Shown here piece after piece: positions 14,074 through 54,154 of a stretch of 64,000 bases of DNA (position 1 is its first letter; each line of letters opens with the position of its first letter). Origin of the DNA: Candidatus Hydrogenisulfobacillus filiaventi. Lineage in GTDB: Bacteria; Bacillota; Sulfobacillia; Sulfobacillales; R501. The position numbers and the translations under genes were made by a program. The stretch lies in NCBI GenBank assembly GCA_902809825.1, contig LR778114.1, positions 1,364,001-1,428,000 on the forward strand. The letters are read 5' to 3'. The notes under the pieces were generated by a model, which was not told the DNA's origin, ran no database searches, and worked only from the letters and a program-made list of their open reading frames with translations.

Positions 14074-14763
14074 CTACCCGCGGCCGTCGGACGAGACCCG
14101 TGGAGTGGCCGCAGCCCCAGCCGCCGGAACGGCCCGCGATTCCAGGTAGCCCCAGAAGATAAGGAGCAGCCCGATGATGTTCATCAGGGGCAGGGCCGAC
14201 AGCCCGATCCCGGTCGAGGCCAGGGTGCCGCCGCTGGTCGACACCAGTGCCCCGGCGGCAATCAGGAGATTGTAGAGGCGGCGCGTCTTCCACCAGGACC
14301 AGAGGGCCCCTAGGATCACCACCGTCCCGCCGATGCTGGCCATCAGCACGTAGAACAGTTGGGTCGGGCCGACAATGCCGCCGATGCCGGCGTTTAACTG
14401 CGTCCAGCTCCCGTGCAGCGCCGGCGGCAGCGCAAACACCGTCACCGCCACCCCCAGGATGAGGAGGATGATGAACCCCGCGTAGCCGTGTGCCCACCGC
14501 CGCGGCACGGCCAGGTAAGTGGTTCCTACCGACATCGTGCCCACCAGGGAGGAGGAGGCGATGACATACAGCTGGTACTGCCACAGCAGGTGCCAGTTGG
14601 TGGCAACGGTCAGGGCCTCCATCACGAAGGCAATAACGTAGAAGGAGAACGAAAACGTCCACCAGAGGTAAAAGGGGGCATGCCGCTCGCGGTAGCGCCC
14701 GGCCAGGATGACCGCAAACACCGCTGCCAGCACGGCCGCCGCCCAATATAACGTTGTCGGCAT
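14074..14763 (-). CDS. Unknown seven-helix membrane protein of the ccm operon
   Basis: Not recognised. The 229 residues contain about seven hydrophobic helices spread along the whole length, with short loops and a polar Ala/Pro-rich tail of about 20 residues. The N-terminus MPTTLYWAAAVLAAVF is a membrane helix rather than a cleavable signal. Aromatic-rich segments such as APFYLWWTFSFSFYVIAF and LLWQYQLYVIASS, with a conserved-looking His, could suit quinone or haem contact, but that is inference. It is the last gene of the ccm run (28 bases after ccmD), so a role in cytochrome assembly or a membrane redox complex is the simplest guess. Confidence 0.75.
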   Translation of the reverse strand: MPTTLYWAAAVLAAVFAVILAGRYRERHAPFYLWWTFSFSFYVIAFVMEALTVATNWHLLWQYQLYVIASSSLVGTMSVGTTYLAVPRRWAHGYAGFIILLILGVAVTVFALPPALHGSWTQLNAGIGGIVGPTQLFYVLMASIGGTVVILGALWSWWKTRRLYNLLIAAGALVSTSGGTLASTGIGLSALPLMNIIGLLLIFWGYLESRAVPAAGAAATPRVSSDGRG

Positions 14764-14790
14764 CGTCGTCCGCCTGCCTCTCTGCCCCGT

Positions 14791-15018
14791 TCAGATCCCG
14801 GGCCGCTCGCGCCGGGGGGTCACCGTGGGCACCACCGGGCCAAGCGCGGCCGGATCCGCCTGGGCCTCCGCTTCCCATTGACGGGCCAGCCGCTCGCTGT
14901 CGCGTTCCAACTGCCGGCTCTTGTTCAGCATTTTAACCATAAAAGCGAACAGCAGGGCGAAAATCGCGCTGTAGGCCAGAAACAGGAACCAGAGATCCAT
15001 CCGCTCCACCGGGCTCAT
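14791..15018 (-). CDS. ccmD: CcmD-like small membrane protein
   Basis: A 75-residue protein with one membrane helix near the N-terminus (FLFLAYSAIFALLFAFMV) and a charged cytoplasmic tail. This is the CcmD layout: CcmD holds CcmE and the CcmABC haem-handling complex together. CcmD sequences are poorly conserved, so the assignment rests on size, topology and position directly after ccmC. Confidence 0.75.
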   Translation of the reverse strand: MSPVERMDLWFLFLAYSAIFALLFAFMVKMLNKSRQLERDSERLARQWEAEAQADPAALGPVVPTVTPRRERPGI

Positions 15019-15046
15019 GACACCACCCCTTTCCCATGCCGGGAGG

Positions 15047-15757
15047 TTATTCCCCCTCTGCCAGGTTAGCCCGCTCCCAGGCCTTGATGCGGTTCAGCAA
15101 CGCTTCCGCCCGCGCCAAGCGCAGGCGGATGATCATCCACACGATATACACCCCGATTAACGCCGCCATGGACAGAAACATGGCCGCAATCATGGGCGGG
15201 GCCATGTTGATCCCGCGGGCGGTAATCACCACCGGGTGGATGGAATGCCACCAGCGGATGGTCATGTAGTCGATGGGCACATCCACATACGCCGCCAGCG
15301 CCAGCACCGCCGAGTAGCGGGCCCGGCGTTCGGGATTGTCACTCCACTCGCGCAGCAGCAGGTAGCCGCCGAACAGGACCCACAGGATGACAGTGGAGGT
15401 GAGACGGGGATCCCACGTCCACCAGATCCCCCAGGCCGCCTTGCCCCACAGAATCCCGCTCGCCAGCACGATGGCGGTGAACACCGTCCCGATCTCGGCC
15501 GATGCGGCCGCCCAGCGGTCGTAGACCGGCCGCCGCCGCCAGAGATACAAGGCGCTGGCCACAGCCGTCACCGTAAAGGCCAGCCCGGCCACCGTGGCCG
15601 ATCCCATGTGAAAGTAAAAGATGCGCACCGTCGGCCCCAGGGTCACATCGTCGGGGCTCCAGATAAAGTCGACATAGAGCACCAGCCACATGAACGGCAA
15701 CAGCAGCCATACCCAGCGGTCCCGTACCCGCCCGGGATCCCGCGGCGGCAGCGCCAT
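15047..15757 (-). CDS. ccmC: Haem exporter protein CcmC
   Basis: Integral membrane haem-handling protein that loads haem onto CcmE. It has 236 residues and six membrane helices. The tryptophan-rich WWD motif lies in AAWGIWWTWDPRLT, with the flanking histidines of the family in IFYFHMGSA and IRWWHSIHPVV. The start is three bases after the ccmB stop, and ccmD follows 28 bases later. Confidence 0.93.
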   Translation of the reverse strand: MALPPRDPGRVRDRWVWLLLPFMWLVLYVDFIWSPDDVTLGPTVRIFYFHMGSATVAGLAFTVTAVASALYLWRRRPVYDRWAAASAEIGTVFTAIVLASGILWGKAAWGIWWTWDPRLTSTVILWVLFGGYLLLREWSDNPERRARYSAVLALAAYVDVPIDYMTIRWWHSIHPVVITARGINMAPPMIAAMFLSMAALIGVYIVWMIIRLRLARAEALLNRIKAWERANLAEGE

Positions 15758-15760
15758 CGG

Positions 15761-16423
15761 TCACACCTCCCAGACGTACTCGTAAATGAGCAGCGGCAGG
15801 GCGAGAAACACCACGTCGTAGGCCATCAGCGTATGGATCCACGGCCAGGGGTTGGCGCCCGCTCCCAGCAGGTCCCGGGTAGCCTCCACCGCCGCGATGA
15901 TCACCGGCACCTCCAACGGCACCATCAACACCGGCACCAGCACGCTCCCCGAGCGGGTGTGAACGGCCATGGCCGCCAGCAGCACCCCCACCCCGGCAAA
16001 CCCGGCCGATCCCAGCACCAGCACCAGCAGCAGAGCCGGCCAGTCCGGCGGCCAGGGCCGGGCGAATAGCAGGAAGAAGGCGGGCGTCGTCAGCAGTTCC
16101 ATGCCCAGCATAAACAGAAACGCCACCACCGTCTTGGCCAGGAACACCCAGGCCCGGTCCCCCGGTGCCAGCAGCAGCCCGGTCAGGCTGTCCTCCGGCA
16201 TCTCGTGCGCCCAGCTGCGCCCCACCCCGACCGTTCCGGCAAAGAGGAACGCCAGCCACAGGATGCCGGGGAAATCCCGGCCGGCGCCGCGGCCGTCGGG
16301 CCCCAGGGCAAAGGCGAAGGCGAACAGGACCATAATCACAAAGGCCACCATAGCGACCCACATGTCCTTGGTGCGCACCTCGAGCAGCAGGTCCTTGGCC
16401 ACGATCACCCAAAACTTGCGAAT
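15761..16423 (-). CDS. ccmB: Haem exporter protein CcmB (probable ATT start)
   Basis: Membrane subunit of the CcmAB transporter. With the start proposed here it has 220 residues, the normal CcmB length, and six helices; typical segments are LWLAFLFAGTVGVGRSWAHE and the C-terminal YDVVFLALPLLIYEYVWEV. The best ribosome site, AAGGGAGG, sits eight bases before an ATT codon (16423-16421) that opens RKFWVIVAKDLLLEV. No ATG or GTG is well placed. The alternative ATG at 16486 adds 21 Gly/Pro-rich residues and a deep overlap with ccmA. An ATT start is rare but known (infC). It overlaps the ccmA 3' end. Confidence 0.9.
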   Translation of the reverse strand: MRKFWVIVAKDLLLEVRTKDMWVAMVAFVIMVLFAFAFALGPDGRGAGRDFPGILWLAFLFAGTVGVGRSWAHEMPEDSLTGLLLAPGDRAWVFLAKTVVAFLFMLGMELLTTPAFFLLFARPWPPDWPALLLVLVLGSAGFAGVGVLLAAMAVHTRSGSVLVPVLMVPLEVPVIIAAVEATRDLLGAGANPWPWIHTLMAYDVVFLALPLLIYEYVWEV

Positions 16424-17142
16424 CGCCGCTGCCTCCCTTGCGCCAGGTGCTCCCGGTAGGCCCGGGCCAGCCCGTCCGCCGTCCACCGCCCCGCTTCATC
16501 CCACCAGCTCAACCGCCCCCGGGTCAGAAAGGCCACCGCATCGGCGTGAGCCAGCGCCTCCCCGGGGTCATGGGTAATCAGAAACAGGGTCCCGCCCCGG
16601 GCGCGGAAGGCTTCCAGCCGCGCGTCCAGCAGTTCGCGCCCGGGGGCGTCGAGCCCGGTGTAGGGCTCGTCCAGCAGCAGCACCTCCGGGTCGGGCAGCA
16701 GCGCCCGGGCGATCGCCGCCCGCTGCAACATGCCACGCGAGAAGGTGGCCACCGGCTCATCCAGGAAACGGCCCAGCCCCACCTCCTCCAGCGCCGCGCC
16801 CGCCCGCCGGGGATCGCAACCCCACAGGCGGGCGGTCAGGGTCAGGTTCTCCCGGGCGGTGAGGGCCGGATAGAGCAGGGAGCGATGGCCCAGGTACCCG
16901 ATCCGGCGATCGGCCCGGGGCTCGGTCACGGCCTGCCCGAACCGCACCACCGTGCCACGGTCCGCCTTCCACAGTCCGGCGAGAATCCGGAGCAGGGTGC
17001 TCTTACCGGCCCCGTTAGGGCCCAGCAGGGCTAACGCCCCGCCCCGTTCCACGCGGAAGCTCACCTGCGCCAACACCCAGCGTTCCCCCAAGCGCTTGCC
17101 CAGTCCATCGGCCGCCAGCGCCGCCTTATCCACGGTCCTCAC
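16405..17142 (-). CDS. ccmA: Haem exporter ATP-binding protein CcmA
   Basis: ABC ATPase of the CcmABCD complex, whose ATP hydrolysis releases holo-CcmE. It has 245 residues: Walker A GPNGAGKST, signature FSRGMLQR (FSxGxxQR as in CcmA), Walker B EVLLLDEP and the H-loop ITHDPGE. The start is GTG at 17142, overlapping the upstream gene by 17 bases; a GTG at 17133 is also possible. The C-terminal YREHLAQGRQRRF region extends over the ccmB start. Confidence 0.92.
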   Translation of the reverse strand: MRTVDKAALAADGLGKRLGERWVLAQVSFRVERGGALALLGPNGAGKSTLLRILAGLWKADRGTVVRFGQAVTEPRADRRIGYLGHRSLLYPALTARENLTLTARLWGCDPRRAGAALEEVGLGRFLDEPVATFSRGMLQRAAIARALLPDPEVLLLDEPYTGLDAPGRELLDARLEAFRARGGTLFLITHDPGEALAHADAVAFLTRGRLSWWDEAGRWTADGLARAYREHLAQGRQRRFASFG

Positions 17143-17941
17143 CCACCGTCGCCAACCGGCGCTCCAACGCCCGCCGCCGCACGCGATATTCGCCGTCCGG
17201 CACCACCCCTTGCTCCCGGGCCGCCTCCAGATCGGCCAGCTCCCGCTCCCAGGCGGCCGCGGCTTCCTGCCGTCGGGCCGTGACCGGCACCCAGTTGAAG
17301 GCCCAGGCCAGCCCGCCTAGGGCTACTGCCAGGGCCGCCGCCAGCAACGCCCGGCCCAGCACCGGATACTGCGGAGGCAGGGCGGGGGCCGGCACGGGCA
17401 GCGCCGCCGACCCCGCCTCCACCACAATCGGCAGGTTCTCGCCTTGAGCGAGCCCGCTGGTGCTGAACACGTTAAAGACCGGCGCCGAAGAACCCGCCGT
17501 CAGGCGCACCCGCCCCCCGGCAGCCAGGGAGGGATTCAGCACGCTCGGCACTGACAGGCCGGGAGCGGCCAGCACCACCAGGGTGTCCGCGGGCTCGTAA
17601 AATGGCAGGTTCAAGGTCCCGCCGCGGCCGTTCCAGGGTACCGTGTAGCGCAGGATCACATCCGGCCGCGTCCCCCCGATCACCACCTGATTGCCCTGAC
17701 GCAGCACCACCGGCGCCGAGGCCGAGACCGGACCGGCCCCGTCCAGGATGCCCACGGCGGGTCCGGCCAGGGGTTGGCTGAACTCCGCATCCTCAAACAC
17801 CGCCAGCTGCCGCCCGTGGGGCACCAACACCAGCAGGAGGCGGCTCAGGTGCCCGCCGGCCGCCAGGGCGGGCACCGGCATCGCCAGCGCCAGGAACCAG
17901 GCCAGAAACGCAGATGCCAGCCGCACCAGACGCCGGCTCAT
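17126..17941 (-). CDS. Unknown exported, C-terminally anchored protein within the ccm operon
   Basis: Family not recognised. The 271 residues begin with a signal peptide (RRLVRLASAFLAWFLALAM, then AALA). An extracellular domain of about 170 residues rich in beta-type sequence follows, with repeated FN-like phrasing such as DTLVVLAAPGLSVPSVLNP. There is one membrane helix near 208-230 (ALLAAALAVALGGLAWAFNW) and a cytoplasmic charged tail. The tail ends with a SHOCT-like helix pair around LEAAREQGVVPDGEYRVRR. The mature part has no cysteine, so it is not a thiol-disulfide CcmG or CcmH. ATG 17941 has AAGGAGGG upstream. It sits between the zinc-ribbon gene and ccmA, suggesting a part in haem or apocytochrome handling (inference). 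Confidence 0.75.
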   Translation of the reverse strand: MSRRLVRLASAFLAWFLALAMPVPALAAGGHLSRLLLVLVPHGRQLAVFEDAEFSQPLAGPAVGILDGAGPVSASAPVVLRQGNQVVIGGTRPDVILRYTVPWNGRGGTLNLPFYEPADTLVVLAAPGLSVPSVLNPSLAAGGRVRLTAGSSAPVFNVFSTSGLAQGENLPIVVEAGSAALPVPAPALPPQYPVLGRALLAAALAVALGGLAWAFNWVPVTARRQEAAAAWERELADLEAAREQGVVPDGEYRVRRRALERRLATVGEDRG

Positions 17942-17943
17942 TC

Positions 17944-18123
17944 CTACCGCCCTCCTTCCCGGTAGCCGCAGCGGGAGCACACGGCTCCCGCCGCCCGGGG
18001 ACCGCCGCACCGCGGACAGCGGCCTTCACCCGGCCCCGCCACCCGGCCCGTCCGTACCGGCAGCCACATCAGAGCCGCCACCGCCAGCACCAGGGCCACC
18101 CCGAGGACCCCTGCCGGATTCAT
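17944..18123 (-). CDS. Small membrane protein with zinc ribbon within the ccm operon
   Basis: A 59-residue protein: one N-terminal membrane helix (GVLGVALVLAVAALMWLPV) and a C-terminal zinc ribbon with CPRCG and CSRCG. Its ATG overlaps the ccmF stop by four bases (ATGA), and the next gene starts two bases after its stop, so it is clearly a member of the operon. Four cysteines on the presumed cytoplasmic side fit zinc binding; a redox role is possible but unproven. No family recognised. Confidence 0.72.
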   Translation of the reverse strand: MNPAGVLGVALVLAVAALMWLPVRTGRVAGPGEGRCPRCGGPRAAGAVCSRCGYREGGR

Positions 18124-20147
18124 CGCGGGGTCGCCTCCCGGCTGAAGGTCCTGCCGGCCACAGGCAGGCCTGGCTCCGTCACCGCAGCTTCCGTCAGGAT
18201 CCGCCGGGGTTCGGGAGCGGACAGGGCCAGCAGGGTGGCGGCAGCCATCACATACATGCCGATCCAGATCCACGATACCATCGGGTTAATGAGGACCTCC
18301 AAGGTCACCCGGCTACTGGAGGGGGCCCAGCCGGTCAGCACCACATAGAGGTCATGCATCCAGCCCCCGCGGATGAAGACCCGGGCCACCGGCTCTCCGG
18401 TCCCGGAATAAAAGGCATCCCCGGGTGCGGCCGTATAGGCGGCAGCCCCGTGCCGGATAGTGAGACGGGCCACGGTGGTGACATGCCCCGGCCCCGGTAC
18501 CGTAGCCAGGCCCTGGTAGCGGAAGCGGTAGCCGTCCACCACCGCGCTCTGCCCCGGCGAGAGACTGATTTTGGCCGGGGCAGGCCCGGTGTGCGAGCCA
18601 ATGACCCCCAGCGCAAGGATAATAAACCCGATATGCGCCAGATACCCGCCATAACGGCGCCGGTTCCGCCATACCGCCTGCCCCAGGGCCGCCGGCCAGG
18701 GGGCGGGATACTGACGACGCCGGGTGCCAGCAGCCCGGCCGAACTCGCGCAGCATGGACAGGAGGGCAAACCCCGCGGCTCCTACCCCGATGGCGTCCAT
18801 CGCGGTATCAAAGCCGAACGGCCAGAGCACAGCGGCTGCCACCGCCCCTCCGGCCGCCGGCCCGGCCAGGGCCCGCGCCGCCGTGCGGGCGTTGGTCCGC
18901 CGCCAGGTCAAAGCGGGTGCCGCTCCCATCAGCACCAGCAGCACCACAAAGAAGGGAGCCGTCATGGTATTGAAAAACCGGGTGGTGAGGACCACGCTGG
19001 TCCCCCCCAGGGCCTTGGACAGGATGGGGTAAAAGGTTCCGACCAGCACGATCCCGGTTACGGCGGTCAAGGCGACGCTCATGTACAGGTAGGCCGCCTC
19101 CCGGGAGAGGCCTTCCTCCACCGGTTCCGGGTCACGGAGAGCCCGCCGGCGCCGGAACAGCACCCAGCCTGCCGCCGCTACCAGCACCCAGAACAGCCCC
19201 GTGAAGTAGGGTCCGACCCCGGTACCGGTGAAGGAGTGGACGGAGTCTTTCAATACCCCGCTGCGGGTGATGTAGGTGCCGACCAATGTCAGCAGGAAGG
19301 CGCCGATGCCGGTCAGGGTCGTCCACCAGCGGAATCCGCCCCGCCGCTCCTGCACCTGAGCCGCATGCAGGAAGGCGGTCGCCAGCAGCCAGGGCATCAG
19401 AGAGGCGTTTTCCACCGGATCCCAATCCCAATACCCGCCCCAGCCCAGTACCATGTAGGCCCACATCCCGCCTAGCACAATGGCAGCGGTCAGGAAGAGC
19501 CAGGCGAACAGCATCCAGCGCCGGGCTACCGGCAGCCACACCCCGGCCGGGGCGCGGGTCCACACGGCAGCCAGGATGTAGGCAGCCGGCACCGCCATGC
19601 CGATGAGCCCGATGTACATGGTGGGCGGGTGCAGGGTCATGACCAGGTTCTGCAGCAAAGGGTCCAGCCCTACCCCGTTGGAGGGATGACCGGGCACGGG
19701 CGCGAACGGATTGACCACCACCGCCGAAAGGCCGGCAAAAAACACCAGGATGGCCGCCAGCACTGGCACCGCTGCCGGAGTGAGTCGCACCTCCCGTGGC
19801 CAATGGCGGACCGCTAGGTAGGCGGCATACAGGGAAAGCAGCCAGCCCCAGAACAGCACGGAACCGGAGTCCCCGCCCCAGAGGGCACCGATGCGATAGA
19901 CAAGCGGCAGGGCACGGTCGACATGGTTATAGACGGCCTGCACCCCGTAATCCCCGGTCACCAGCAGATCCTCCAAGACCAGCACGGCCACCGTCAGGGC
20001 CACGGCTGCGGCGGCCGTAGCCCCGCGGGCACTTTCGGCCAGCCGCAGATTCCCGCTGCGGAAGGACCAGCCTCCGGCCAAGGCGGCGTACACGGCTGCC
20101 ACCAGCGCCAGCCACAGGGCCAGGTGGCCGACGGCCGGGATGCTCAT
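18120..20147 (-). CDS. ccmF: Cytochrome c haem lyase subunit CcmF
   Basis: Large membrane protein that takes haem from CcmE and attaches it to apocytochrome c. It has 675 residues and about 15 helices. The WWD motif is WGGYWDWDPVENASLMPWL near residue 233, preceded by the conserved TLHPPTMYIGLIGMA histidine region and followed by FTGTGVGPYF. The ATG at 20147 gives a first membrane helix typical of CcmF; the longer reading frame has no such support. It is 11 bases downstream of ccmE. No ccmH or ccmI follows, so CcmF may act alone, as in system I* organisms. Confidence 0.95.
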   Translation of the reverse strand: MSIPAVGHLALWLALVAAVYAALAGGWSFRSGNLRLAESARGATAAAAVALTVAVLVLEDLLVTGDYGVQAVYNHVDRALPLVYRIGALWGGDSGSVLFWGWLLSLYAAYLAVRHWPREVRLTPAAVPVLAAILVFFAGLSAVVVNPFAPVPGHPSNGVGLDPLLQNLVMTLHPPTMYIGLIGMAVPAAYILAAVWTRAPAGVWLPVARRWMLFAWLFLTAAIVLGGMWAYMVLGWGGYWDWDPVENASLMPWLLATAFLHAAQVQERRGGFRWWTTLTGIGAFLLTLVGTYITRSGVLKDSVHSFTGTGVGPYFTGLFWVLVAAAGWVLFRRRRALRDPEPVEEGLSREAAYLYMSVALTAVTGIVLVGTFYPILSKALGGTSVVLTTRFFNTMTAPFFVVLLVLMGAAPALTWRRTNARTAARALAGPAAGGAVAAAVLWPFGFDTAMDAIGVGAAGFALLSMLREFGRAAGTRRRQYPAPWPAALGQAVWRNRRRYGGYLAHIGFIILALGVIGSHTGPAPAKISLSPGQSAVVDGYRFRYQGLATVPGPGHVTTVARLTIRHGAAAYTAAPGDAFYSGTGEPVARVFIRGGWMHDLYVVLTGWAPSSSRVTLEVLINPMVSWIWIGMYVMAAATLLALSAPEPRRILTEAAVTEPGLPVAGRTFSREATPR

Positions 20148-20158
20148 GGCTCCACCCC

Positions 20159-20557
20159 CTAGGGTTTGGACGGTGCGGCCTGGTAATGGTCCGGGCACTG
20201 GATGGCCAGCTTGTCCGCCACGAATACGCCTTGGGCGTCCATGCGGCCTTCCACAATCGCGTCCGTATTCTTGAACTTCTCGTTCGGCACCGGCCCGGTG
20301 TACAGCACCGGCAGGCTCGCCCCATGGGCGAGCAGGGTAAAGCGCAGGGTGCCCTGGCGCGGATTAAAGCGGACCGAGGAACCCAGCAGCCTTCCCTGCA
20401 CCCGCACCACCTTGCCGGCATAGCGCGCGTATTCCGCCCGGTACTGGTTGACGGGCATGAAATAGTTGGAGAAGTTGCGGGCGCCCATCCAGCCGAGATA
20501 CAAAATGGCGGCGACTACAGCCGCCGTCCCCGCATAGAGCCTCAGTTGCTTGGACAT
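20159..20557 (-). CDS. ccmE: Haem chaperone CcmE with CxxxY motif
   Basis: Membrane-anchored haem carrier of cytochrome c maturation. It has 132 residues: an N-terminal helix (LYAGTAAVVAAILYLGW), an OB-fold (VVRVQGRLLGSSVRF) and a C-terminal haem-binding tail. Where most CcmE proteins have HxxxY, this one reads CPDHY, that is CxxxY, in LAIQCPDHYQAAP (checked in the nucleotides: TGC CCG GAC CAT TAC). CxxxY is the hallmark of the variant system I* known from some archaea and sulfate reducers. ATG 20557 follows AAGGAG. First gene of the leftward ccm run; no clear promoter was recognised in 20558-20828, which otherwise holds nothing I can identify. Confidence 0.93.
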   Translation of the reverse strand: MSKQLRLYAGTAAVVAAILYLGWMGARNFSNYFMPVNQYRAEYARYAGKVVRVQGRLLGSSVRFNPRQGTLRFTLLAHGASLPVLYTGPVPNEKFKNTDAIVEGRMDAQGVFVADKLAIQCPDHYQAAPSKP

Positions 20558-21119: not shown

Positions 21120-23606
21120 CTAGACCGTCGCCTGCACTCGGGCGGGAGCAGCTCCCGTTCGCTCCAGCCGGCGGTAGACCGCCAGTTTAGCTTGGTCTTC
21201 CAGGAAGATCCACCCGAGGCAGTAGCCCCACACCAGGGCAGCGTCCGCCCCATTGATCGGCGTAATGAGACCGAAAGGGTAGATGACGAACACGGTGGCA
21301 GCCGCCTTGGTGGCCACGGCAGACCAGAACAGCATCCGCGACGGATACGGGGGCCGGAAGAACGGCTGCCGCGAGCGCGCCACAAAGAGGGTAAGATGGC
21401 CGGCGACCGCCAGCTTCAGAAAGATGAGGGTTTGGACCTGGGGCAGGTTCATATGCAGCCCGTCTTTGGCAATAAGCAGTATCCCGAAGGTCTCCACCAC
21501 TCCGATCAGTCCCAATACCGGGGAAACGGTGAGCACCCTCCTCATATTCCAGCGGACCGGCTCCGGATCCAGCCAGGTATTGTCGGAAGCAATGGCCATA
21601 ATGGGAAGGTCATTAAAGAAGGCCAGCAAGATGATCATAACCGCCGAAATCGGGTAAAAATTGAAGACCAGCATCGCCAGCACCACAAAGAACATGATGC
21701 GGATGGTTTCGGTAATGCGGTAGATCACATAGCTGTTCATCCGCTCGAAGATTCGCCGTGCTTCCTCCACTGCCCTGATGATGACGCGGAGTCCCGGCGC
21801 CGTCAGCACCAGGTCCGCTGCTGCCCGCGCCGCGTCGGTGGCTCCGGAGACCGCAATCCCGACGTCCGCCTGTTTAAGGGCCGGCGCATCATTCACCCCG
21901 TCCCCCGTCATGGCCACCAAATGGCCATGCCGCTGCAGGGCCTTGACGATCCCGAACTTGTGCTCCGGGAACACCTCTGCAAAGCCGTCGGCCGCCTCAA
22001 TTTGGGCCTCCGAGCGGTCATCCAGGCCGCCGGCGTCGACTCCGGCAGCAAACAGCTGTCCGGCCGGTTCGATGTTCCGGCCAAGGCCCAGCTGCCCCGC
22101 GATTTCCCGGGCGATGGCGACATTATCACCTGTGACCATCTTAACGCGAATGCCATGAGCGATAGCTTGGGCGATGGTCTCGCGGGAATCCGCCCGGGGC
22201 GGATCAAACAGGGACAAGAGGCCGAGAAAGCTCCAGGGCCCCTCCCCCTCCCGGCGCGCCACACCCAGGGTCCGGTAGCCCTTGGCGGCCAGGTCCGCTA
22301 CCGCCTGCCCCACCCGGGCAGTGCGGGTCTCATCAGGCGGGCACAGGGCCAACACCGCCTGCGGAGCGCCTTTGGTCACCACCATCCCCGTACCGTCGGG
22401 GGCCGTAACGGTGGCTTCGGTCCGCTTGCTGACGGGGTCAAAGGGAACAAATCGGCGCACCCGATACGCCGCCAGGGCCGAAAGGTCGTGCAGCGCTTCC
22501 AGCACGGCCCGGTCGATGGCGTCCTCGTCCTCCTCCCGGGACGCCAGCGCCGCCGCCAGGATCACGTCGTCCGTCATCGGGGTGTCCACCGCCACCACTG
22601 GCCCCAGAGTCAGCCGGTTCTGGGTCAAGGTTCCGGTCTTGTCCGAACAGAGGACGTCGATGCCCGCCATTTCTTCAATGGATTCCAAGCGGGTGACGAT
22701 GGCCTTCAGACGCGACAACGCCAGCGCGCCCACGGCCATGGTCACCGAAAGCACGGCCGGCATAGCAACCGGGATCGATGCTACGGTTAGAATCAGGGCG
22801 AACTGCACCAAGGTGAGGAAGGGGGCGCCGCGCGCCAGCTGCACGCTCAACAGCACCACGACGAGGCCCAGACTCAGGTAGATGAGATAATTCCCGATGC
22901 GCAACACCGCCTTCTGGAAATGCGAAACCGCCCCTGCAGTCTCCACCAGTCCCGCCGTGCGGCCAAAAAAGGTGCGCATACCGGTGGCAGTCACCAGAGC
23001 CCGCATTTCCCCCTGCTTGACGATGGTGCCCGAATAAGCCGCGTCGCCCGCTTTTTTGGAAACCGGCAACGATTCCCCGGTCAGCGCGGACTGGTCCACA
23101 CTCAGGTACTCGCCCTCAAACAGCAGCACATCAGCCGGTACAATATCTCCCAGCCGGATCTGGATCACGTCACCCGGGACCAGGTCCCGGGCCGGCAGCT
23201 GCCGCCATTGCCCGTCCCGCAGCACCCGGGCCTGCAACGCCAGCTGCTGCTTTAAGGCTGCCACCGCCCCCGCTGCCTTATATTCCTGCCAGAATCCCAC
23301 CACACCATTAAAGACCAGCAGCAGGACGATAATCGTGAAATCGGCCCAATGGCGCACGACGGCCGACAACGCCGCCGCCACTTCAATCATCCACGGGATG
23401 GGACCCCAAAAGTACCCCAGAAAGCGGAGGAGCGGGTTCATCCGGTGCTCCTCCAGGGCATTAGGCCCTGCTTCCGCCAGCCGGCGGGCGGCCTCATCCG
23501 CCGGGAGGCCCCCGGGCGAACTCCGGAGCCGGGCGAATATCTCCTCCAGTGTACCCGAAGGACCGGATGGCACAGGATGCGCCTTCGAGGCCGGTTTGTC
23601 GGCCAT
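21120..23606 (-). CDS. Plasma-membrane proton-efflux P-type ATPase
   Basis: P3A-type ATPase, probably pumping protons out of the cell to maintain cytoplasmic pH. It has 828 residues. The N-terminal cation ATPase domain ([20 protein letters not shown]) precedes the actuator loop with the dephosphorylation motif TGES. The phosphorylation site is [11 protein letters not shown], and the hinge is [14 protein letters not shown] followed by [12 protein letters not shown]. About ten helices are present; helix 4 has [14 protein letters not shown] as in PMA1-type pumps. No heavy-metal-binding N-terminal domain is present. ATG 23606 has GGGAGG upstream; the 66-residue upstream extension is low-complexity. 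Monocistronic; its stop faces the tRNA terminator. Confidence 0.92.
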
Positions 23607-23633
23607 GCCCACCGCCTCCCTCTTTTTGGCTCC

Positions 23634-23639
23634 ATCATA
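23634..23639 (-). promoter_or_regulatory. Possible -10 box of the P-type ATPase gene
   Basis: TATGAT on the minus strand, 28 bases upstream of the ATG. No convincing -35 element. Confidence 0.3.
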
Positions 23640-23662
23640 CCCTGTCCGTCTCTGCCCTCGCC

Positions 23663-24479
23663 TCAGTGGAGTTCCCGGCTGACCACCAGCACCCGGTCGC
23701 TGCGGGTCCGCGTCAACCCCAGGCTCACCGTACCATCCCGGGCCAGACCCAGCACCAGGCCCTGCTGCCGCGCCCAGTAGCGGCTCAAGCCCTGGCCGGC
23801 CCAACCGAGCTCCACCGGCACCTCCCGCAGCCGGGAGCCGGTGGATTCCCGGAAACGCAGCAGCAAATCGGCCGCATGCAGCGTTTCCAGGCTTTTGGCG
23901 AGGGTCTTTTCCCCATCAGCATGGGCTACACCCAGATCCCGGAACGCCTCCCGGGCCACCACCGACGGGGTCAGAGCCATCACCAGCGAGGGGCCAGGTG
24001 CCGCACAAGCGCCGCCGTCATCAAAACCGAGCCGTCACGGTCCCCGGCCACCACCGCGGGTCAATGGGGGCCACCAGCCCCACCCGCTGCTTTGCCTGCA
24101 CCAGTGCCTGGATAAAGTGGGCCATGATAGGGATACAGCCATAGACCGACAGGTGATGGCGGGTCCCGGGGCGGTATTTCATGCCCGGGAGCCGCGTCAG
24201 GTAGGTCGAATCCAGGGTGGACGCCCAGGATACGAAAACAGCCCCCACCAGGGGAATCGCGATCAGCTTGACCGCCCAGGGTCCCTACCCTGCGGCGGTA
24301 GCCGTCGCCCATGGTCGTGGCCAGAGGCATGGCCCAGGAGACGCCGAGGAACAACGGCAGGCGCTCGACCCAGGCGCAGGCGGCCGCCCCGCCAGGGTCA
24401 CCACCGTTGCCAGCACGGCCAGGACCCAGACCTGGTTGCAGCGCAGGCGCTCCCATAACAGGCTCAGCAGGAACGGCAT
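23663..24479 (-). pseudogene. Frameshifted membrane-protein gene (at least three breaks)
   Basis: No single frame is open across the segment, but successive frames join into one plausible protein of about 270 residues. It starts at ATG 24479 (MPFLLSLLWERLRC) with a helix WVLAVLATVVTLAG. It shifts in a G-run near 24390 to a frame with ERLPLFLGVSWAMPLATTMG. It shifts again near 24285 to VKLIAIPLVGAVFVSWASTL and continues to the stop at 24021. A last frame change near 24030 would lead through SVLMTAALVRHLA into the 106-residue C-terminal frame (EAFRDLGVAHADGEKTLAKS) ending at 23663. Three helices, then a soluble domain. Family not recognised. It could be real decay or sequencing error. Confidence 0.55.
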
Positions 24480-53449: not shown

Positions 53450-54154
53450 GTGGAAGGAATATCCTGGTTTGTCGCCTTCGCGGCCGGCATGGCATCGCTG
53501 CTGTCGCCCTGCGTGGTGCCGTTGATTCCCTCGTACCTGACAGCCATGGCCGGCACCAACCTGACCACCGTGCAGTCCGTAGCCGAGGTGCGGGGACGGG
53601 TGGTCACCAACGCTGTCGCATTCGTGCTGGGCTTCAGCCTGATCCTGGTGCTGTCCGGTATGGCGGCCACCCAGCTGGGTTTATTCGTCCGCAGCCACCA
53701 GCGCGTGATTGCGGAGGTCGGCGGACTGGTCATCATACTCTTCGCCCTGCAGGTGCTGGGCATCATCAACATCGGCTTTCTCAACCGGGAAGAGCGGGTG
53801 CAGGTGCAAAGCGGCCAGGCCCGCCGCATGGCGGGATCCTTCCTGCTGGGCATTGCCTTCGCGGCCGGCTGGACGCCCTGTGTCGGCCCGGTTTGGGCCA
53901 GCATCCTGGTCATCGCCGCCCAGGCCCATTCCGTCGCCCTGGGCGGCCTGCTGCTCCTGGCGTATGCCATGGGCATGGCCCTACCCCTGCTCCTCCTGGC
54001 CGTCTTCATCGGACAGGCCATGACCGCCGTCCGGCACATCCAACGCTATCTGCCGGCGGTGGAGCGGGCCACAGGCCTGCTGCTGCTGGTGCTGGGCCTG
54101 GCACTGGTGACCGGAATCTACGGCTCCATCCCCAACTACCTCTACCGCTTCTAG
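53450..54154 (+). CDS. ccdA: Cytochrome c biogenesis thiol transporter CcdA
   Basis: Passes reducing power from cytoplasmic thioredoxin across the membrane, for reduction of apocytochrome c thiols or for spore envelope proteins. It has 234 residues and six helices. Two cysteines lie in the expected places: SLLSPCVVPLIPSYL in helix 1 and AGWTPCVGPVWASIL in helix 4. The start is GTG 53450 after AAGGAGG. Functionally it can serve the ccm operon 33 kb away and, being beside the dpa block, possibly also sporulation. Confidence 0.92.
   Translation: MEGISWFVAFAAGMASLLSPCVVPLIPSYLTAMAGTNLTTVQSVAEVRGRVVTNAVAFVLGFSLILVLSGMAATQLGLFVRSHQRVIAEVGGLVIILFALQVLGIINIGFLNREERVQVQSGQARRMAGSFLLGIAFAAGWTPCVGPVWASILVIAAQAHSVALGGLLLLAYAMGMALPLLLLAVFIGQAMTAVRHIQRYLPAVERATGLLLLVLGLALVTGIYGSIPNYLYRF

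Follow-up and report, generated by a model that had tools for sequence, protein, structure and literature searches.

The stretch of Candidatus Hydrogenisulfobacillus filiaventi DNA considered here (64,000 nucleotides of contig LR778114.1, positions 1,364,001 to 1,428,000, hereafter the window) carries on its minus strand, read from window position 20557 down to 14074, a run of genes for cytochrome c maturation in the order ccmE, ccmF, Z, X, ccmA, ccmB, ccmC, a ccmD-like gene and M, where Z, X and M are labels used here for convenience. Adjacent genes of the run overlap or are separated by at most 28 nucleotides, to judge from the starts and ends of their open reading frames (ORFs), and hence the run 14074-20557 reads as a single operon. 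An earlier reading made from the sequence alone (the sequence-only reading) had assigned it to the variant called System I*, and that assignment is supported by what follows. System I* is itself known, however, and the main value of this locus lies in X and Z, two genes of the operon without family names, which may be missing parts of the Cys-type haem-attachment machinery.

The ORFs of the run were scored against Pfam and NCBIfam models with their curated cut-offs. The first gene, ccmE (20159-20557), encodes a haem chaperone of 132 amino acids (PF03100, 70.7 bits against a cut-off of 24.6) with the C-terminal tail AIQCPDHYQAAPSKP, in which the haem position is the cysteine of CPDHY; the CxxxY tail named by the sequence-only reading is thus borne out. 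It is followed by ccmF (18120-20147), whose 675-residue product is a cytochrome c haem lyase that contains PF01578 and PF16327, matches the solved CcmF structure 6zmq (E 9.8e-83) and carries the motif WGGYWDWDP within WGGYWDWDPVEN. Its histidines H173, H261, H304 and H505 are invariant across an alignment of 12 sequences from the window and the class, in which the alignment numbering of these residues is two higher than the protein numbering. The start codon of Z (17944-18123, 59 amino acids) overlaps the stop codon of ccmF, and the 3′ end of X (17126-17941, 271 amino acids) is overlapped by 17 nucleotides of ccmA (16405-17142), the ATPase gene (TIGR01189, 146.1 bits against a cut-off of 131.6). 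Farther along lie ccmB (15761-16486, although its true start may be further downstream), for the ABC membrane subunit (PF03379, 109.3 bits); ccmC (15047-15757), for the haem handling protein (PF01578, 94.3 bits; TIGR01191, 125.6 bits, below the cut-off of 186); and a gene for a ccmD-like small membrane protein (14791-15018) that only just exceeds the cut-off of TIGR04391, CcmD_alt (24.6 against 24.0 bits). The last gene, M (14074-14763), encodes a protein with several transmembrane helices that matches no Pfam or NCBIfam family over cut-off; seven further loci of the order have a relative of M after ccmD, and some of the remaining loci are too short to show one. Neither CcmH, CcmG nor CcmI has a match over cut-off within the run. 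The sequence-only reading was therefore right that CcmA to CcmF are present and these three absent, and the ccm genes that it listed are real; what it missed are the two genes that separate ccmF from ccmA, Z and X.

Assignment to System I*

The genome that was searched is complete, a single contig of 2,570,337 bases (completeness 100%, contamination 1.59%). No match to CcmH (PF03918) was found in it at E ≤ 10, although CcmH was detected in the controls, E. coli among them, and no ResB was found over cut-off, the sole match scoring 11.9 bits where 24.6 are required. That match (genome position 1,043,818) falls in a 303-residue ORF that has no Pfam match at E ≤ 0.001, and it was rejected as ResB. 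Likewise, just three proteins of the genome contain PF01578, namely CcmF, CcmC and a third encoded at genome positions 805,000-815,000, within a cluster that Pfam matches mark as one for haem synthesis. This third protein was rejected as ResC, having no ResB beside it; because its gene has hemA and hemC on its two sides and hemB close by, we take it to be HemX-like. Hence the PF01578 domain that CcmC and CcmF have in common with System II (ResBC/CcsBA) is present, but ResB, which that system pairs with CcsA/ResC, is not found over cut-off, and the two marks of canonical System I, the histidine of HxxxY in CcmE and a CcmH, are both lacking. What is found instead is a cysteine in the CxxxY motif of CcmE together with CcmA, CcmB, CcmC and CcmF. 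From the Cys-type CcmE, the lack of CcmH and the lack of a ResB over cut-off it follows that System I* fits, and these genes probably form an operon, ccmE-F-Z-X-A-B-C-D, for cytochrome c maturation by a System I* that lacks CcmH, in which the cysteine of CPDHY is the putative covalent haem ligand of CcmE. Seven places in the genome match PF13442 over cut-off and correspond to six ORFs for c-type cytochromes, which together have eight CXXCH sites; judged by its gene content, the organism needs a cytochrome c maturation pathway.

The operon can be compared with described systems of this kind, for which we cite the papers from excerpts. The Desulfovibrio System I* resembles that of the window in its Cys-type CcmE, the presence of CcmD, the lack of CcmH and the clustering of its core genes (PMC3601427, PMC9084895). 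The window differs in having CPDHY rather than the commonest motif, CPSKY, and may differ also in the two extra genes, Z and X, that come after its ccmF. The archaeal Ccm systems of Methanosarcina and ANME also have a Cys-type CcmE; unlike the window, archaea are reported to be without CcmD, and M. acetivorans has two CcmF proteins (PMC9084895). In one ANME-2 locus a protein of the X family is encoded beside ccmF, as in the window, but there a CcmH-type match follows ccmF.

It is also worth considering how widespread the Cys-type CcmE is. CcmE is present in 78 of 154 genomes of the class, and 79 of the 80 matches could be read, all with cysteine at the haem position; the unread match (G075) is truncated. 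An even sample of the phylum gave CcmE in 84 of 398 genomes, nine of which belong to the class. In each of the 75 positive genomes outside the class one CcmE was read, and 75 of 75 were Cys-type, eight further matches in six of these genomes being left unread. Thus in the sampled Bacillota genomes every CcmE that was read is of the Cys type. The sequence-only reading had called such an assignment uncommon in Firmicutes, which these counts contradict: the Cys-type system is not rare in Firmicutes, and its kind is already known, Cys-type CcmE having been on record in delta-proteobacteria, Chloroflexi and Firmicutes since 2011 (PMC3601427). The same source states that about one third of bacteria with a Cys-type CcmE retain CcmH (PMC3601427). 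Within the class, CcmH exceeds its cut-off in 30 of 154 genomes and ResB in 17 of 154, and neither does so in any genome of the window's own order. Four other genomes of the class (G059, G060, G130 and G141) have strong ResB matches and a Cys-type CcmE, that is, two cytochrome c systems together.

In four loci of one family within the order (L065, L072, L076 and L079) the CcmE motif is CPDHI or CPNHI, with isoleucine replacing the tyrosine of CxxxY, and another genome of the class has CATHY. In five Chloroflexi loci (L112, L123, L130, L154 and L166) the motif is CPSKM, CPSKF or CPSRF, and here the tyrosine is likewise gone. A quick-mode maximum likelihood tree of CcmF with 85 rows places the window protein in supported sets of five and six rows that are all Cys-type, and the His label, held by 16 rows, requires five changes on this tree. 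Because cysteine is present in every relative read and CcmF lies within all-Cys supported sets, a recent single substitution of histidine by cysteine is excluded.

Genes X and Z

X has no match over cut-off to any Pfam or NCBIfam model. From its sequence and model, the protein comprises a signal, a beta-sandwich at residues 32-176, one transmembrane helix from about residue 193 and a cytosolic helical tail, and it contains no cysteine. The AlphaFold2 model (mean predicted local distance difference test score, pLDDT, 79.7) is confident for the beta-sandwich, for the long helix that begins at residue 193 and for the last helix, at 249-270. In the PDB this model most resembles ribophorin I and yeast Ost1 (Foldseek E 1.8e-6; VIA Z-score 11.9 over 154 residues at 3.5 Å), and a second model (pLDDT 86.3), of the Chloroflexi X from L112, which has an additional domain at its N-terminus, is likewise matched best by Ost1/ribophorin I (Z-score 13.0 over 160 residues at 2.9 Å, with M1 aminopeptidase domains at 11.3 or below). 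Alignment A3, used for AlphaFold2, omitted three of the 33 X proteins from named loci (L129, which has N, as well as L124 and L152), and A4 contained still fewer of them. The predicted outer domain of X is thus closest in fold to ribophorin I/Ost1 of the oligosaccharyltransferase, with which X also has a single transmembrane helix and a cytosolic tail in common, but X has one ribophorin-like domain rather than two, no sequence match and an unrelated operon. A search of X against viral structures gave nothing at E ≤ 0.001.

When 29,247 ORFs were searched with a hidden Markov model (HMM) built from the beta part of X alone, 82 matched at E < 1e-3; with these ORFs reversed there was no match. Within the order, X is present in each of the 26 loci that could be read for it, two others (L016 and L019) being too short to show it; among the best 80 named ccmF loci from a scan of public genomes, 33 have it. 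The X-bearing named loci come from Acidobacteria, Chloroflexi, Planctomycetes, an Ignavibacteria, a Poribacteria, an Eisenbacteria, a Bacillus, a Neomarinimicrobiota, a Myxococcota, an ANME-2 archaeon and others. In 32 of these 33 loci X starts within 3.1 kb of the end of ccmF; in the remaining one, L150, which was scored as positive by hand, X starts inside the end of ccmF. The commonest gene order among the loci is E-F-(H)-Z-X-A-B-C-D. When the named loci with a CcmE in hand and at least 2.5 kb after ccmF are tabulated, 26 of the 42 Cys-type loci have X, against none of the 12 His-type ones (Fisher p 1.2e-4), and CcmH, sought with an HMM started from one seed sequence and then iterated, lies beside ccmF in 20 of 42 and 11 of 12, respectively. 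This table leaves out 16 of the 80 loci with less than 2.5 kb after ccmF and ten without CcmE in the locus, seven of which have X. Since eight of the 12 His-type loci are from Actinomycetota, the contrast between the Cys and His types in X and Z is inflated by kinship.

Z consists of one transmembrane helix followed by a zinc ribbon of two CxxC pairs, CPRCGGPRAAGAVCSRCG. The charges in the sequence suggest that this ribbon would face the cytosol. An HMM made from the window Z alone found no relatives, so these were sought by place and Cys pattern, and the counts for Z rest on such patterns. Of the 26 loci of the order, 21 have an ORF with the Cys pattern at the Z position, and the pattern found none in the other five; the window is among the 21, although there the pattern caught an upstream stretch of the ORF and the ribbon itself was seen in the sequence. 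In the Z of L055 the last cysteine is degenerate. Elsewhere in the class and in other phyla the protein at this position is often longer, with a CcmI-like loop (for example LEYDYRMDKL) ahead of the ribbon, and a Z-like pattern, either ribbon or loop, occurs in 20 of 42 Cys-type loci and in one of 12 His-type loci (L146).

Both proteins invite comparison with CcmI, a part of the proteobacterial CcmFHI ligase. They are like it in their position next to ccmF and in a weak signal for its cytoplasmic loop: the CcmI model TIGR03142 matches the tail of the window X at 16.9 bits (E 0.0058), under the cut-off of 29.3, and the Z of L134 at E 0.03, and it has no match to the window Z. Unlike CcmI, X is predicted to have a beta-sandwich outside the membrane instead of a TPR domain, and neither X nor Z can be called CcmI on these scores. 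In the open-licence literature we found no paper that links proteins of the X or Z type (ribophorin, zinc ribbon, carboxypeptidase regulatory-like) to ccm genes.

Beyond ccmE, past two tRNA-Leu genes, a P-type cation ATPase (PF00122, PF00690) is encoded on the minus strand at 21120-23804.

Possible roles of X and Z

CcmA, CcmB, CcmC and CcmD load haem onto CcmE, and CcmF attaches it to the CXXCH sites of exported apocytochromes. In the system of the window, the loading of CcmE would proceed through the cysteine of CPDHY in place of a histidine. Reductant for the apocytochromes would most likely pass from CcdA to thioredoxin-like proteins encoded elsewhere. The ccdA gene, for a thiol-disulphide membrane relay, does lie where the sequence-only reading had placed it, at 53.4 kb (53450-54154, plus strand; PF02683, DsbD_TM, 71.6 bits). 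No CcmG is encoded in the operon, and the eight places of the genome that match the Redoxin family over cut-off include two thioredoxin-like proteins (L209 and L215) with WCPPC/WCPAC following an N-terminal stretch that by eye is hydrophobic.

We propose, tentatively and at less than even chances, that X and Z are accessory parts of the CcmF ligase. X would be an accessory subunit that keeps the unfolded apocytochrome close to CcmF with its outer beta-sandwich and so takes the place of the TPR domain of CcmI, which in Rhodobacter and Pseudomonas binds apocytochrome (PMC3884852). Its cytosolic helices, together with the membrane-anchored zinc ribbon of Z, would tie the ligase to CcmA or to the rest of the complex. 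In its fullest form this proposal makes X and Z unrecognised subunits of a Cys-type maturation machine that numerous phyla of bacteria and one or more archaea have in common. In it the ribophorin-I-like X would receive the apocytochrome and present it to CcmF, replace CcmI and make CcmH dispensable in this order, probably the Sulfobacillales, and Z would be the cytosolic connection between the ligase and the haem-loading ABC complex; so extended, we regard it as rather doubtful.

Several observations weigh against such a role. According to excerpts of the 2022 Methanosarcina paper, CcmABCEF1F2 of M. acetivorans is enough in M. barkeri; the authors consider it unlikely that a non-orthologous protein replaces CcmH or CcmI, although one in the host was not excluded (PMC9084895). 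Not every System I* has X, since 16 of the 42 Cys-type loci with room for it lack it, as do the loci of the phylum sample ordered A-B-C-E-F. The fold of X does not fix its function, since the N-terminal domains of M1 aminopeptidases come next among the matches of the window model, at Z-scores of 10-11, only 1-2 below ribophorin. Moreover, the two X models have most of their alignment rows in common, and a sequence profile of X searched against the PDB returned 18 matches at E ≤ 10, the best at 0.01 and judged to be chance, with no ribophorin among them. Finally, part of an oligosaccharyltransferase review describes the Ost1 fold as not chaperone-like and the roles of such subunits as unclear, and suggests that Ost1 prevents peptide that has been glycosylated from returning to the catalytic site (PMC7226087).

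It is about as likely, again at less than even chances, that this is plain System I*, in which the six core proteins are enough and X and Z are conserved neighbours belonging to another envelope function that are merely carried in the operon. The gaps in the distribution of X among Cys-type loci favour this explanation, as does the Desulfovibrio operon, which functions in E. coli without CcmH and CcmG (PMC3601427). It is harder to reconcile with the occurrence of X next to ccmF in every readable locus of the order and, across phyla, in 33 of the 80 named loci, with the coupled reading frames of ccmF, Z, X and ccmA, which overlap or nearly abut, and with the lack of X in all His-type loci of the table.

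A CcmH that has diverged too far for Pfam, with Z or X as its disguised form or with an outward-facing Z reducing the apocytochrome through its four cysteines, appears improbable. Z does have its two CxxC pairs and directly follows ccmF, the position of CcmH in many other loci; but it has no LRCxxC, the CcmH motif, and its charges would place the ribbon in the cytosol. X was rejected as a CcmH candidate for its lack of cysteine. Furthermore, CcmH and a Z-type protein are encoded side by side in 13 named Cys-type loci, and Z is therefore a gene separate from CcmH. Least credible is a dead or recently mutated His-type CcmE in a cell that makes its cytochromes c by another system, for which nothing speaks besides the substitution itself and against which stand the cysteine of all relatives read, the absence of a ResB over cut-off and the restriction of PF01578 to CcmF, CcmC and the protein encoded between hemA and hemC.

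Returning to the proposal that X and Z assist the CcmF ligase, its interest lies in a question that, in the excerpts cited, both the 2011 review (PMC3601427) and the 2022 Methanosarcina paper (PMC9084895) leave open, namely by what means haem is attached in System I* when CcmH is lacking, and for what reason CcmE carries a cysteine. As genes of the operon that may supply missing parts of this machinery, X and Z are direct candidates for the missing handling step in System I*.

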